Positions 6,297 through 42,894 of a DNA stretch of 42,894 bases are shown here, one piece after another. A program made the translations under genes and the position numbers. The stretch is taken from positions 1 through 42,894 of the IMG/VR virus record IMGVR_UViG_3300009285_000022, one strand, 5' to 3'. The notes below the pieces were generated by a model. It searched no databases. It saw only the letters and a program-made list of their open reading frames with translations, and had not been told where the DNA came from. Each line of letters opens with the position of its first letter. Positions within the stretch are counted from its first letter, which is position 1. Source of the stretch: a virus.

Positions 6297-6500
6297 ATGA
6301 AATTTATGGCTAATTTAAGTTTTATTTACAGCACCCGCTTCATAAAAATTGTTTTAATTGGGGTGATTGAAGGACTGTTGGCAGTAAATGTTATTGAGGC
6401 CGATACTTCGGTTGCTTTGGTTAGAATTTTAGAAGCGATACTTGGTGCTTCAGTAGTAGTCAGAACGATAGATAGATTCTCTGAAAAGATAGGAGCGTAG
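6297..6500 (+). CDS. Small hydrophobic protein, holin-like, overlapping tRNA-Trp
   Basis: 67 aa from the ATG at 6297; an ATG at 6309 is a possible alternative. There are two hydrophobic stretches, about residues 16-33 (IKIVLIGVIEGLLAVNVI) and 36-55, and a charged C-terminus. It follows the endolysin directly. The last ten bases, including the TAG stop at 6498-6500, are also the first ten bases of the tRNA gene, so processing of the tRNA 5' end would remove the stop from the message. Confidence 0.55.
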   Translation: MKFMANLSFIYSTRFIKIVLIGVIEGLLAVNVIEADTSVALVRILEAILGASVVVRTIDRFSEKIGA

Positions 6501-6564
6501 CTCAATTTGGTAGAGCGCCCGCCTCCAAAACGGGATGTTAAAGGTTCAAATCCTTTCGCTCCTG
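6491..6564 (+). tRNA. tRNA-Trp (anticodon CCA)
   Basis: A 74-base cloverleaf fits well. The acceptor stem pairs AGGAGCG with CGCTCCT (7 bp), the D stem pairs GCTC with GAGC, and the anticodon stem pairs CCCG with CGGG plus one C-A mismatch next to the loop. The seven-base loop CTCCAAA places CCA at 6525-6527. The T arm pairs AAAGG with CCTTT around TTCAAAT. The discriminator base is G and no CCA end is encoded. The anticodon reads UGG, so this is ordinary tRNA-Trp and not a UGA suppressor. Confidence 0.93.
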
Positions 6565-6593
6565 CTGAATGTTCTTTAATAAGGGAGGTGAAT

Positions 6594-7571: not shown

Positions 7572-8147
7572 CTACTTGTTTTTAAAACCATATTCAACCT
7601 TTTTAGGCGGTTCATATTTTCGACCTTTGGCTACGCAGAGCAAGCCATTTAAATGGTCAAGCTCGTGCTGGAAAATTATGGCTTCCAATCCTTTAAACTT
7701 TTCCTCACGCCACTTGCCTTCTGAATCCTGCCAGCGCGCCCATCCATAAGGAGCGCGAGGGACAATATAAATATCTTTGCCTAAAGAATAGCATCCTTCC
7801 ATCATATCTTCTGGCGGGGCTTTGGTAGTGCGAAACTCTGGATTTATAAAGACTCGGTTGAAGGCTAAGAATACTCTTTTATTGACCCCAATCTGCGGAG
7901 CGGCTATTCCCAATCTTCCACCCCAACGTTGATTATAAAGTGTAGCTCCCAACTGGCGAATAAGGTTTTGGGTTTCTTTGTCAAATTTTGTGATAGGTTC
8001 TGATGGTTTTAAGAGGCGCGGGTCGGGATATTTTAGAATTTTTTTTGGTCTATTGCGCCAGCGCAGCAGTTTGATGGCTAAGCGCCCTTTTAAATAAGCA
8101 GAGACTAAAATTATCCTATTGTTCCACTTCTTTAAGAACGTCGTCAA
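7572..8147 (-). CDS. def: Peptide deformylase
   Basis: Removes the formyl group from the N-terminal methionine of new proteins. All three family motifs are present: GIAAPQIG (residues 80-87 from the TTG at 8147), EGCYSL (117-122, metal ligand Cys119) and HELDH (161-165, two His ligands and the catalytic Glu). ILKYPDPRLL near the N-terminus is typical. There is no ATG upstream of the core within reach. TTG at 8147 is the best available start; CTG codons around 8065 are alternatives. The 3' end of the VRR-NUC gene overlaps this start region, so translation may be coupled. The Tyr in motif 2 (usually Leu) is a minor variation. Confidence 0.88.
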   Translation of the reverse strand: MTTFLKKWNNRIILVSAYLKGRLAIKLLRWRNRPKKILKYPDPRLLKPSEPITKFDKETQNLIRQLGATLYNQRWGGRLGIAAPQIGVNKRVFLAFNRVFINPEFRTTKAPPEDMMEGCYSLGKDIYIVPRAPYGWARWQDSEGKWREEKFKGLEAIIFQHELDHLNGLLCVAKGRKYEPPKKVEYGFKNK

Positions 8148-8439
8148 TGGAGTAGGCGAGGATGGCGATACCGCCTGCGGCTCTAATTTTGTTGAGGAAA
8201 TATTCTTGGTCTGGGGAAAGATGTATTCCTTTCCTTTTGACTTCAACGGCGACGAATCTTCCTTCTGGGGAACATCCAATGATGTCTGAGATTCCTTTCT
8301 CTCCGAGAGCGAGGGGGATATATTTTCCCGTAGCTTGTTTGAAAATTCCGACATTGCGGTGTTTAAAGACAATAAACTTTTTAAGTTTGAGATAATCAAG
8401 AATTGCTTTTTGGATTTCTTGCTCTGTCGAGTTTCTCAT
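8116..8439 (-). CDS. VRR-NUC domain nuclease
   Basis: 107 aa from the ATG at 8439; a TTG at 8496 would add 19 residues. The PD-(D/E)XK signature of the VRR-NUC family is visible: STEQEIQ near the N-terminus, KGISDIIG (Asp52), FVAVEVKRK (Glu66 and Lys68) and PDQEYFLNKIRAAGG. Stand-alone phage VRR-NUC proteins are predicted structure-selective nucleases, often near recombination genes. Catalytic residues are intact. The start overlaps the end of the gene at 8396 and the end overlaps the deformylase start. Confidence 0.88.
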   Translation of the reverse strand: MRNSTEQEIQKAILDYLKLKKFIVFKHRNVGIFKQATGKYIPLALGEKGISDIIGCSPEGRFVAVEVKRKGIHLSPDQEYFLNKIRAAGGIAILAYSIDDVLKEVEQ

Positions 8440-26289: not shown

Positions 26290-26305
26290 TGTCAAAGACT
26301 TGACA
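26290..26305. promoter_or_regulatory. Operator-like palindrome TGTCAA-AGAC-TTGACA
   Basis: A perfect 6-bp inverted repeat with a four-base spacer. The same half-sites occur in the regulatory gap at 20765-20837, which suggests one regulator for both regions. Confidence 0.5.
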
Positions 26306-26448
26306 AGATAGTCAAGAACAAGGCAAGGAGAGGAGAGAACAGCAGAACACGAAAAACCAGTTTCGGGTAGGGGGAGTTTTCTTTTTGGCTTGGAAAAAGT
26401 TGGGGGGGACACCCCACCCCAATCCACCCCCACTTTTGAAAACCCTTT

Positions 26449-26478
26449 TTTACGGGCGCTCACGGGCGCGATTATAAA
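26449..26478 (+). promoter_or_regulatory. Possible promoter for the structured RNA
   Basis: TTTACG (26449-26454) and TATAAA (26473-26478) on the plus strand with 18 bases between. The -35 box is weak. A start near 26485 would begin the RNA at its first hairpin. Confidence 0.4.
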
Positions 26479-26500
26479 AAAACGAGACCTATTAAGGTCT
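26476..26500 (-). terminator. Intrinsic terminator facing left
   Basis: AGACCT (26485-26490) pairs with AGGTCT (26495-26500). On the minus strand the stem is followed by CG and seven T (26476-26482). It would stop transcripts entering from the right. Confidence 0.6.
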
Positions 26501-27005
26501 GGTCTTACTTATTCAGGTGTTGGTTGTAGATAAGATAATCCCCTCTGTCTTTGTAAGCTAAAGACAGTGGTGAAGCCCTCTGTGGGATTTTCTACTGGGT
26601 CTTAGAGGAGTCTTATTCAGGCAGTTGGGTATCAGTTTAGAGCCGATACAGCCCAGAGTAAGATTGTCTATCCTTACCAATTTTGGAGTGCTTTGCTTTT
26701 TTCCAGAACTGGTGGCGCTCATTCACTAGGTTCGCCATCTTGGATAGTCCCCGCTCGTGAAGGTCGTCCCTTGCGGGACACATTGAGTATTATTTGCCCA
26801 GAGATTGACGGTGAGGTTTACTCGAACCGCGTCTGACCTTTCCACAGGATTGACAGGAACTTTCGTATGTAGTAGGGTGAGTATGAGTCCAAAGTTGTGG
26901 TCAAACTTGCTTTGGACTGCTCTTTCCCAACATTGTGGTCAACTTCTTTTCAAGGGGTTTAATGACCATAACAAAAAGCACGCTCTAAAGCGTGCCTTTT
27001 GTTTT
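26485..27005 (+). ncRNA. Large structured noncoding RNA with intrinsic terminator
   Basis: About 500 bases with no gene and a dense set of mutually compatible helices: 26526-26530/26591-26595, 26537-26542/26584-26589, 26545-26552/26560-26567 (8 bp), 26611-26618/26656-26663, 26626-26633/26645-26655, 26668-26673/26742-26747, 26711-26717/26733-26739, 26760-26765/26835-26840, 26766-26770/26775-26779, 26809-26815/26821-26829, 26887-26894/26910-26917 (8 bp) and 26934-26941/26963-26970. Three of these contain G-U pairs that would be A-C mismatches on the minus strand, so the RNA is plus-sense. It ends in a terminator. It lacks tmRNA, RNase P and 6S hallmarks as far as I can judge. Large phage RNAs such as GOLLD and ROOL are the nearest concept, but I cannot match it to them. 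Confidence 0.72.
26978..27005 (+). terminator. Intrinsic terminator of the structured RNA
   Basis: GCACGCT (26978-26984) pairs with AGCGTGC (26989-26995) around CTAA, followed by CTTTTGTTTT. The mirrored A-run gives a T-rich tail on the minus strand too. Confidence 0.85.
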
Positions 27006-27190
27006 ATCCCCTGTGACAAAATACCCAACATTTCTATTCTCACATTCAAAAACTTGATGGTCAAGTATGAAAGTGGGGATAACTCTGACTCGGCATTTTG
27101 TCATAATTCATCCTACTTTTTTTCTGGCGCGCGCTCAAGCGTTTTTGGGGATAAGTTGTTGATTTCTTTAAAAAAGTTGTAATATAAATT
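27004..27190. other. Possible replication origin: DnaA-box-like sites beside an AT-rich stretch
   Basis: TTATCCCCT at 27004-27012 and TGGGGATAA at 27074-27082 and 27146-27154 (reverse TTATCCCCA) differ by one or two bases from the TTATCCACA DnaA consensus. A further TTATCCCCT is at 25936-25944. The region ends in an AT-rich stretch (27160-27190) before the terminase gene. This could be an origin or a promoter region for late genes. Confidence 0.35.
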
Positions 27191-27910
27191 ATGGCCGAAG
27201 AAACGTCAATAGTTGAGCCGTTGGTTGCGCCGAAAAAGAAACACGGCAATCCCACTTGGTTTCAATACGAGGGGTTCACTGGCCGTTTTCAAAAAATAGA
27301 GGAGTTCAGAGATTTGATTCCGAAGTTTAAGGATTTTTATTACGAGGCGCGGCTCTTAAATCCCAATGCCCCAGGAGGCTCTTTGAAGATAATCAATGAT
27401 TTCAATAAAGTTGTAGCGCCTCTGCGGTTTCATCCTTACCCCGCCCAGTATCGCTGGTGGAGAAAGAAATGGGATGAGGATATTATTCAGCAGCTTGCCA
27501 ATGTTAAAAAAGACGAGCCAGTGGTGAAGGCGATTGCCACCAGGAACGCCGAGGGAGCTATCTTGAGTCCCGACGAGTGGGAGTTGGAGCGTGGGACGAA
27601 GACTTTGGCGGGAGAGTTGGTTAACGACGCGCTGACAATGCTCAAAGCAGACCAGGAGCGCGACTATTTGCAGACGGATGAGAACCTGGTGAAGCGCCGC
27701 AAGTATATTTTGGATGTGATGGCTCACGTTACCCGTTTGACCCAGGGCAAGGAAGCCCTCAAAATCCGCAAGCACGCGGAGGGGCGCGAGACGGCGGGCT
27801 TCTTGTTTGATATTTTGAGGCAGGCGGTGGCGGGCAAGCTCACTCCTGACGAAATGGCTTTATTAAAATCTTCTTTTGCCAACGAAAATGTCCCGACCCC
27901 CGCAAATTGA
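27191..27910 (+). CDS. Putative terminase small subunit
   Basis: 239 aa, helical and charged, no recognised motif (HGNPTWFQYEGFTGRFQKIE, YPAQYRWWRKKWDEDIIQQL, KTLAGELVNDALTMLKADQE). Its place directly before the large terminase, with a 23-base overlap, supports a DNA-recognition role in packaging. It is the first gene of the rightward late cluster. No strong ribosome-binding site precedes the ATG and I could not find a convincing promoter for it. Confidence 0.6.
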   Translation: MAEETSIVEPLVAPKKKHGNPTWFQYEGFTGRFQKIEEFRDLIPKFKDFYYEARLLNPNAPGGSLKIINDFNKVVAPLRFHPYPAQYRWWRKKWDEDIIQQLANVKKDEPVVKAIATRNAEGAILSPDEWELERGTKTLAGELVNDALTMLKADQERDYLQTDENLVKRRKYILDVMAHVTRLTQGKEALKIRKHAEGRETAGFLFDILRQAVAGKLTPDEMALLKSSFANENVPTPAN

Positions 27911-29582
27911 GACAAGTTTGAAGGATTTTTTGGTCTCGACTCTGCCCGCCGAGGCGAAGCGGGCGTTTGTGGAAATGCTGGAGCAGTATCAGCGCGGGCG
28001 CGAGGACATCGTTTATTTTTCCGAGGAGCTTCTGGGCGTTCCCCTAAACGCTTTCCAAAAAAACTTTTTAGCGCACTCCACGACTCCCCGCAATTTATGG
28101 ATGGAGAGATTCGGGACTCTGGTTGAGGACATCGGAGGGATGCTGTTCGGGCGCAACATCGCGCATCCCTCTAATCAGGTCGGCAAGACGGTAATGATTG
28201 CAGTCAAGCATATCTGGATGAACTTTTATAAAATCGGGCTGGACTTGGACGGAGCGCTGATTATGGAGACTCATTACCAAACTCTGAATATTTCTCCCCA
28301 TACCCGCCAGGTGCGCCAATGCTTTCAATACGCGAAGGAGATTTTGGAGGAACGGTTTTTGATTGATGAGGACGGGAAGAAGCGTATCAACAAGCTCGCG
28401 CCGCTTTTGAAAAACTTTATGGTCGGGGAGAACGTGAATCTCGGCGAAATCCGTTTTTCCAACAAAAGCATTTTTTATTCCGTTCCCACTGGCCAAGACC
28501 AGGCGGCTTCTCTCGCAGGCGCGCAGTTCGGCTATATTTCTTACGACGAGTGTGCGCAGAGCCTCCACTTGGAGGCGGAACTCGGCGCAAAGATTCTCTC
28601 CCGTCTTATCAAATACGGGGTCAGTATTGATTTAATTTCAACCCCAGAAGTTGATTCGCCTTCACACCAATATTATCTGCATATTGTGAAGATGGGCGAG
28701 GCTGGCAGGGAAGGTTGGTGGGCTTTGGGCGGGCGGCTCGATGACAATATTTTTATCTCTCAGATTCAGAGGGAGCGGGTTAAGGCGGATTTGTTATCCA
28801 CAGACAAGAAGAAATACAGGCAGGTGGTGTTCGGGGAGTTTATTACGGGAGGCAAACGCTATTTCGAGCCTGCGGAGATAGAAAACCTTTGGAAATTAAA
28901 GGGGAAAGCGCAGTGCCGGCAGGGTGGGAAATATCTTTTGGTTGCAGACTGGGGTATGTCTGATACGGGGGATGAGTCGGTATTTAAAATGTTTGACTAC
29001 TCCGAGTGGATTATGCGTGGTAAGATTCGGATAGCGGCGCACGAGAAGATTCGTGGCGGTTCGCCCCAAATGCAGTTCGCGCTTCTCCGCACTTTGTATG
29101 ATTTATTCACTTGGGGGGACGAGAAAACGGGCGCGCTGACCTTCCCGATTTTCGTGATGGATGCGGGCGCTTTGGGAGGGGTGGTCATTAAAAAACTTCT
29201 ATTCCAGCTTAAACCCAGGGCTTTTGACATCGAGAAGGATGAGGCGCTTTTTATAACCAAGCGGGAAATGTCGGCGGGCAGGGATTATTTCGAGTCCGAG
29301 ATTGACGGCGCGGTTATTGAGAAGAATCCGAATTTCGGGAATATTGAATCCTATTACATTGATGAGTTGGGGGAACAGCTTGGAAACTATCATCTCGATG
29401 ATAAAAAGCTCAAACAGGATTTCGTTATGACTTTCGTGATGGGAATTTCTTACATCTCCAAAAAGATTCCGCGACATTCCGCCAAGCCTGTTTCTTTAAA
29501 CCCGCTTGCGGGATACGAAGCAAGCATCGCGCGGCCAGGCCGTCCGCGCCAGGATTTTTCTCGAAAACAATTATTTAAATAA
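27888..29582 (+). CDS. terL: Terminase large subunit
   Basis: 564 aa from the ATG at 27888. It pumps DNA into the capsid and cuts concatemers. ATPase: adenine motif LNAFQKNFL (53-61), Walker A HPSNQVGKTV (93-102, Lys100), Walker B YISYDE (216-221) and coupling STP (251-253). Nuclease (RNase H fold): LVADWGMSDTGDES (351-364, Asp354), FVMDAG (422-427, Asp425) and an acidic site near LDDKKLKQDF (503-512). All key residues are present. It overlaps the small-subunit gene, and the portal follows 51 bases later. Confidence 0.93.
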   Translation: MSRPPQIETSLKDFLVSTLPAEAKRAFVEMLEQYQRGREDIVYFSEELLGVPLNAFQKNFLAHSTTPRNLWMERFGTLVEDIGGMLFGRNIAHPSNQVGKTVMIAVKHIWMNFYKIGLDLDGALIMETHYQTLNISPHTRQVRQCFQYAKEILEERFLIDEDGKKRINKLAPLLKNFMVGENVNLGEIRFSNKSIFYSVPTGQDQAASLAGAQFGYISYDECAQSLHLEAELGAKILSRLIKYGVSIDLISTPEVDSPSHQYYLHIVKMGEAGREGWWALGGRLDDNIFISQIQRERVKADLLSTDKKKYRQVVFGEFITGGKRYFEPAEIENLWKLKGKAQCRQGGKYLLVADWGMSDTGDESVFKMFDYSEWIMRGKIRIAAHEKIRGGSPQMQFALLRTLYDLFTWGDEKTGALTFPIFVMDAGALGGVVIKKLLFQLKPRAFDIEKDEALFITKREMSAGRDYFESEIDGAVIEKNPNFGNIESYYIDELGEQLGNYHLDDKKLKQDFVMTFVMGISYISKKIPRHSAKPVSLNPLAGYEASIARPGRPRQDFSRKQLFK

Positions 29583-42577: not shown

Positions 42578-42894
42578 ATGGAAGCGAAAATACATCTCAA
42601 ACAAAACGTCACTTATAAAATCGTCGGGAAAGATGGCAAAGTCAAGCCTATTTTCCAGACTTGGAATTGGGTTTCCAATCTGATTCAAAGCGGCTGGCTT
42701 TCCCCGCTTCACTGGAAAATTCCTTTTCTGTTTGGATACTGGGAGACATCTTTTCAAGTTTCAAATCTTATCACCAATGCAGGCGCGGCGTTGGTAGCTG
42801 GACTTATCAATGGGGTAATTACAAATTTCTTTGACTATATTGCAGTGGGGACTGGCACTGGGGCGGCAGCAGCCACAGATACGGCGCTTGGAAC
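42578..42894 (+). CDS. Phage structural protein, N-terminal part (gene continues at base 1)
   Basis: The first 105 codons of the 186-aa gene that closes the circle (80 before the unique circle ends, continuing in frame at base 1). MEAKIHLKQNVTYKIVGKDG is followed by TWNWVSNLIQSGWLSPLHWK and FLFGYWETSFQVSNLITNAG. Together with 1-321 this is a minor virion protein of unknown role. Confidence 0.85.
   Translation, partial: MEAKIHLKQNVTYKIVGKDGKVKPIFQTWNWVSNLIQSGWLSPLHWKIPFLFGYWETSFQVSNLITNAGAALVAGLINGVITNFFDYIAVGTGTGAAAATDTALG
42818..42894. repeat. Terminal direct repeat, copy 2
   Basis: Identical to bases 1-77; see copy 1. Confidence 0.97.

Follow-up and report, generated by a model that had tools for sequence, protein, structure and literature searches.

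Structured element in the divergent region

A groundwater-type phage was found to carry, between its early genes and those for DNA packaging, what sequence comparison indicates is a conserved folded RNA (or RNA-like) element of about 400-500 nt, non-coding and outside any Rfam family. The element covered positions 26500-26972, in a segment reaching to about 27003, with the plus strand slightly favoured. Its assignment as a large structured RNA element was strongly supported by blastn homology, a four-way alignment, covariation and the lack of a conserved open reading frame.

The window, i.e., the whole stretch of DNA analyzed, was an entire virus record of 42,894 bases. Its two ends (1-77 and 42818-42894) were direct repeats, about 77 nt long, which suggested a complete, circularly assembled genome. 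Gene orientation diverged around 25.6-27.2 kb, and the structured segment lay inside this region, where it had originally been placed, with leftward genes on one side (including those for deformylase, DNA methylase, AAA and HerA-like proteins) and the terminase, portal and head genes, read rightward, on the other. The terminase large subunit (TerL) was encoded at 27876-29582 on the plus strand (phrog_2, E 2e-12), directly preceded by a probable small subunit (27191-27910, plus strand) that overlapped the TerL frame, was without PHROG match and was named from its position only. The phage-borne peptide deformylase was encoded at 7572-8399 (minus strand), and the sole tRNA gene, a tRNA-Trp, was located at 6491-6565, 20 kb from the segment. 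A conserved element just upstream (26365-26424), GGGTAG(T)GGG...GGGGACACCCC... (also given as GGGTAGTGGGT, about 30 nt, GGGGACACCCCAACCTAATTT), was read directly in relatives, at the equivalent place in L002, L010, L012-L015, L017 and others, and could be a candidate cos site, origin element or (phage-specific) promoter.

The plus strand of 26485-27005 folded with a minimum free energy of -178 kcal/mol (z -5.0, 100 dinucleotide shuffles), in line with the original prediction of an unusually structured non-coding segment. The minus strand also folded better than chance (z -3.4), and antisense z scores were as low or lower in many relatives. Without the end hairpins, z for the window segment fell to -2.5, so that the case rests on covariation rather than on folding energy. 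A coding gene was rejected, since the open frames of the window segment, of at most 76 codons, were not conserved among relatives, and matches in translated comparisons were scattered over many frames on both strands. Comparison of relatives thus bore out the claim that no gene fits the segment. The outcomes named beforehand as refuting the prediction did not occur: homologues existed, covariation was present in them, and no conserved gene ran through the segment.

The proposed check against Rfam covariance models gave no family match for the window or for seven relatives; matches to known RNAs were noise only, and nothing above noise was obtained for the element in Rfam 15. The statement that the RNA is not tmRNA, RNase P RNA or 6S RNA agreed with the absence of any Rfam or ARAGORN match. 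A resemblance to a CRISPR repeat (UUUAGAGCU) was discarded by eye, as the likeness covered only 8 nt, formed a loop inside a hairpin and had no anti-repeat. A literature search that covered open-access papers yielded no description of the element.

Homologues and conserved helices

Relatives were gathered through the terminase large subunit (about 20 in IMG/VR), and nearly all of them had a long stretch of non-coding DNA at the corresponding locus. When the segment was compared by blastn with the DNA upstream of the relatives' terminases, L006 matched at 64.5% over 361 nt (E 2e-25) and L007 with an E value of 2e-9. The core (26509-26858) was homologous to L006, L007 and L013, and the alignment of these three with the window spanned 346-420 nt end to end. 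Used as a search pattern, the conserved GAGATTGAY block returned chance matches only, except in L006 and L007, and blastn against 50,697 phage records gave only short chance matches for the window and none for three other members.

As the prediction had anticipated, compensatory changes preserved several helices, namely 26545-26567 (H1), 26629-26656 (H4), 26668-26673 with 26742-26747 (H5), 26676-26712 (H6), 26712-26738 (H7) and 26807-26833 (H9). H1, H5, H6, H7 and H9 were paired in nearly every examined member despite different sequences. Twelve helices had been proposed; several were retained, the set as a whole was not confirmed, and the single-sequence minimum free energy structure mis-paired several of the conserved hairpins.

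H1, a hairpin of 8 bp in the window, recurred with 7-9 bp and a different sequence in L006, L007 and L013, with all 28 inner cells paired, the best possible result among the 24 assignments of four sequences. H5 encloses H6 and H7, and its stems read CTATCC/GGATAG in the window and TGCATC/GATGCA, AATATC/GATATT and CTTACC/GGTAAG in L006, L007 and L013, respectively. H6 consisted of two stacked helices around a single A/C position, and an equivalent hairpin was present at the same place in L013. H9, within the conserved block GAGATTGACNGGNGAG...GTC, appeared as CGGT/ACCG, AGGG/CCCT, GGGG/CCCC and GAGG/CCTC. For helices compared in four sequences, the observed pairing was matched by about 4% of shuffles (1 in 24, the true assignment), the maximum attainable with four sequences. 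Farther right, hairpin H11 (26886-26918; AGTCCAAAG...CTTTGGACT) had equivalents with changed stems in L006 and L007.

H7 represented a second signature, with the loop CTCATTCACTAGGTT in the window and CCCNGGTTCCTATATAA elsewhere. It was recovered from 10 phages, including L005 and L024, from a group with 37-40% terminase identity, and its inner 4 bp, in stems picked by eye, were paired in 40 of 40 cells (shuffle mean 17.7). An automatic stem survey of the aligned relatives, which counts overlapping and alternative stems, yielded 103 compensatory, 19 G-U, 26 A-C and 38 other cells.

Signature hairpin and its distribution

The signature hairpin H4 (26629-26656; GTATC-AGTTTAGAGCC-GATAC-AGCCCAG in the window) was present in at least 12 phages, with the layout (5 bp)-NNUUUAGAGCN-(5 bp)-ARCCCAG and an 11-nt loop containing UUUAGAGC. 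All viral contigs were scanned with a pattern that fixed loop and tail and left the stem free. Each of the nine pattern sites outside long frames (window included) had five of five Watson-Crick stem pairs, while the other ten pattern rows, nearly all within long open frames, had 0-3. Across the twelve members, 60 of 60 stem cells were paired (shuffle mean 36.7), a value reached by none of 20,000 shuffles, and among the ten members of equal loop length the covariation score was 1.08 versus 0.23 when shuffled, with changes on both sides of all five pairs. L002, L021 and L057 were identified by eye and are therefore weaker evidence than the pattern matches. A covariance model of the signature (R1) found a single copy in each of seven of the nine phage records searched, the copy in L025 being weak; a MAFFT alignment of the larger H4-H7 domain misplaced the 3' helix.

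Four of the phages (L028, L032, L059 and L066) were reached through the motif alone. L059 encodes an unrelated terminase (a Terminase_3 enzyme), and the hairpin again lay in a divergent region upstream of it. Elsewhere it was found beside structural genes (L032), between leftward genes (L066) and among early genes (L028). The unrelated terminase and the other neighbourhoods argue that the hairpin belongs to a unit of its own and not to a cis element coupled to the terminase.

Many terminase relatives possessed a structured region and lacked the signature hairpin, which may mean that several RNAs occupy one locus. Covarying stems also occurred in pairs without the hairpin (L008/L017, L010/L015 and L022/L026), as would be expected of either a very plastic RNA or several kinds of RNA at the locus.

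Terminators, promoters and strand

The intrinsic terminator predicted at the right end was found again at 26978-26995, but it proved to be bidirectional (26978-27003, with an A-run on one side and a T-run on the other) and to serve a leftward mini-gene that had been overlooked. This mini-gene (26985-27104, minus strand, 39 codons) has its stop inside the terminator hairpin, and accounts for the minus-strand terminator on the right without any RNA being required. Positional counterparts of 25-71 codons were present in most relatives, very variable in sequence, with most stops in or adjoining the terminator. The right terminator of L012, L015 and L057 was without a good plus-strand T-run. The loop region of the right terminator in the window (26982-26989, GCTCTAAA) was complementary to the signature loop (TTTAGAGC), and that of L006 was not. 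At the left end, a terminator-like hairpin with a leftward-reading T-run (26485-26500, minus strand) had similar counterparts in L007 (1174-1152) and L006 (1187-1170).

A leftward promoter-like site was located at 27209-27181 in the window, and most relatives had such sites 54-118 nt to the left of the terminase operon. In L018, L022, L023 and L024 the terminase operon had separate promoter-like sites directly at its start, and the distant relatives L022 and L023 displayed rightward ones inside the divergent region, at positions -615 and -429 relative to that operon. On the plus strand of the window, no consensus promoter was detected in front of the element.

Plus-strand transcription was mildly preferred. 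G-U pairs had been put forward as an internal test of strandedness in favour of plus, an argument that was not upheld, as G-U and A-C counts, fold scores, terminators and composition conflict: internal G-U pairs outnumbered A-C pairs by only 15 to 10 in the covarying helices (a non-significant difference, with the signature hairpin counted in several species pairs), and the minus strand folded well too. Together with this slight G-U excess, the rightward promoter-like sites of L022 and L023 and the convergent mini-gene on the right pointed to plus. The leftward terminators at the left end of the window, L006 and L007, the main structural argument for leftward transcription, pointed to minus, as did the A-rich minus strand of nearly all members and an A-C excess in isolated single-sequence hairpins (23 versus 11.5 in shuffles), several of them being terminators or stems of low complexity. 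Two adjacent positions at the base of the signature loop disagreed, the first favouring plus (G-U in six) and the second minus (R opposite an invariant C). GNRA loops were discarded as strand evidence (17 on each strand), and structure-conservation indices by strand were uninformative because of misalignment in the automatic alignments.

Nature of the element

With slightly better than even confidence, we regard the element as a stand-alone phage RNA gene, probably trans-acting, of the same kind as GOLLD and ROOL and forming a separate family. The terminator-like hairpins at both ends and the separate promoter-like sites of the terminase operon argue against a leader and, together with the foreign neighbourhoods of the signature hairpin, suggest a separate trans-acting RNA gene. 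Such a gene, neither a protein gene nor a mere leader of the terminase operon, would make a folded RNA of 400-500 nt, read most likely in the late-gene direction and stopped at the shared bidirectional terminator. The RNA would most likely act in trans during infection, alone or protein-bound, with two conserved hairpin loops as putative contact points (UUUAGAGC followed by ANCCCAG, and the GGUUCCUAUAUAA-type loop). More tentatively, it could represent a new class of large phage RNA, common to phages with unrelated terminases, perhaps infecting Patescibacteria, and working as an RNA machine (an RNA-only multimer like ROOL or GOLLD, or a packaging or replication partner). A role in packaging, replication or host takeover is a guess, compatible with the position by the terminase and with DnaA-box-like sites; as an argument, position is weakened by the signature hairpins of L028, L032 and L066.

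A rather unlikely alternative is cis-acting control of replication or packaging, the divergent region being an origin or cos/pac site at which the RNA primes or gates replication like ColE1 RNA II. DnaA-box-like TGTGGATAA sites were nine times denser in control regions (0.52 per kb) than elsewhere (0.057 per kb), which leaves room for an origin-linked role, and in the terminase clade they lay close to the early promoters and immediately ahead of the terminase genes. The conserved GGGGACACCCC element just upstream and a terminase adjoining the element throughout the clade also fit an origin, but the boxes of the window were imperfect only (TGGGGATAA at 27074 and 27146), and the signature hairpin also occurred away from any terminase (L032, L066, L028). 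The minimum of cumulative GC skew in the window, at 26.0 kb, suits an origin and is also expected from gene orientation.

Slightly less probable again is a leader or attenuator, either a minus-strand arrangement of promoter, peptide gene of about 39 codons, terminator and structured RNA controlling the leftward genes, or a plus-strand 5' leader of the terminase operon. The mini-gene stop within a terminator, the leftward promoter-like sites, the leftward terminator at the left end and a weak resemblance to the Thr, Trp, Leu and Phe leaders of Rfam are features of that kind. However, these Rfam scores were far below the gathering scores, no run of a single regulatory codon was seen, and separate leftward promoter-like sites preceded the early genes in many relatives, about 1.0-1.4 kb to the left of the terminase operon; nor is a leader expected in phages with other neighbours. 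A function of the inverted repeats at the DNA level (as binding sites or cruciforms), with covariation reflecting selection on palindromes, is improbable, since stems that drift freely with pairing kept around fixed loops fit folded RNA better than palindromes bound by proteins, and H6 and H7 are nested inside H5, even if G-U and A-C cells were not clearly unequal, as expected if neither strand is RNA.

Relation to known RNAs

Relative to this preferred reading of a stand-alone RNA gene, the nearest kind described in the open-access literature was represented by GOLLD and ROOL (PMC12286853), the comparison that had initially been suggested. Few large structured phage RNAs are known, and these two, the best known, are still without a settled function. 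GOLLD is often found near tRNA genes, unlike the segment, which is not near a tRNA array and is 20 kb from its single tRNA-Trp. GOLLD is a large ornate RNA of phages and prophages, of unknown function, with conserved and less conserved parts (PMC12286853). The element shares this partition, but at about 500 nt it is shorter than many GOLLD RNAs (more than 800). With the GOLLD model of Rfam, nothing in the window reached the gathering score, and no match appeared to E=5 in 26300-27200 or to E=1 in seven relatives.

ROOL assembles into an RNA-only cage. It is also a large phage RNA, of 659 nt for env-120 (PMC12286853), similar in length and likewise with no known protein partner, but it occupies another genomic location. 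No match to the ROOL model was obtained in the window, in 26300-27200 or in seven relatives.

The phi29 pRNA is a phage RNA that binds the packaging motor and is required for packaging. The element shares with it a phage origin and a possible link to packaging, but here the terminase large subunit is ordinary, and the element is much larger and occurs at sites remote from terminase genes as well; no Rfam match to phi29-type pRNA appeared in the window or in 26300-27200. ColE1 RNA II, a structured RNA of about 550 nt at an origin, is a replication pre-primer, similar in size and in its candidate origin setting, but no sequence match is known and the signature hairpin is found in other gene settings too.

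Possible host

Among 362-380 genomes from the candidate host phylum (the phylum of G001), none yielded a convincing copy of the element, so it appears to belong to phages. Two weak matches in 362 genomes were rejected, one within a gene and the other between tRNA genes and without the invariant loop. A terminase relative with 65% identity came from a metagenome bin named Candidatus Levyibacteriota, on a contig of 4 kb; as binning of phage contigs is unreliable, a Patescibacteria host is a hint only. Phage RNA biology is little known in this possible host group. The short recognisable signature, defined clade position and members in unrelated phages allow the element to be mined and tested.

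Comparison of L082 (10218-12353) with L028 (1-420) indicated that the end of the contig seems to duplicate its start, with 127 identical bases, followed by an IS1595-type transposase adjoining the RNA element.
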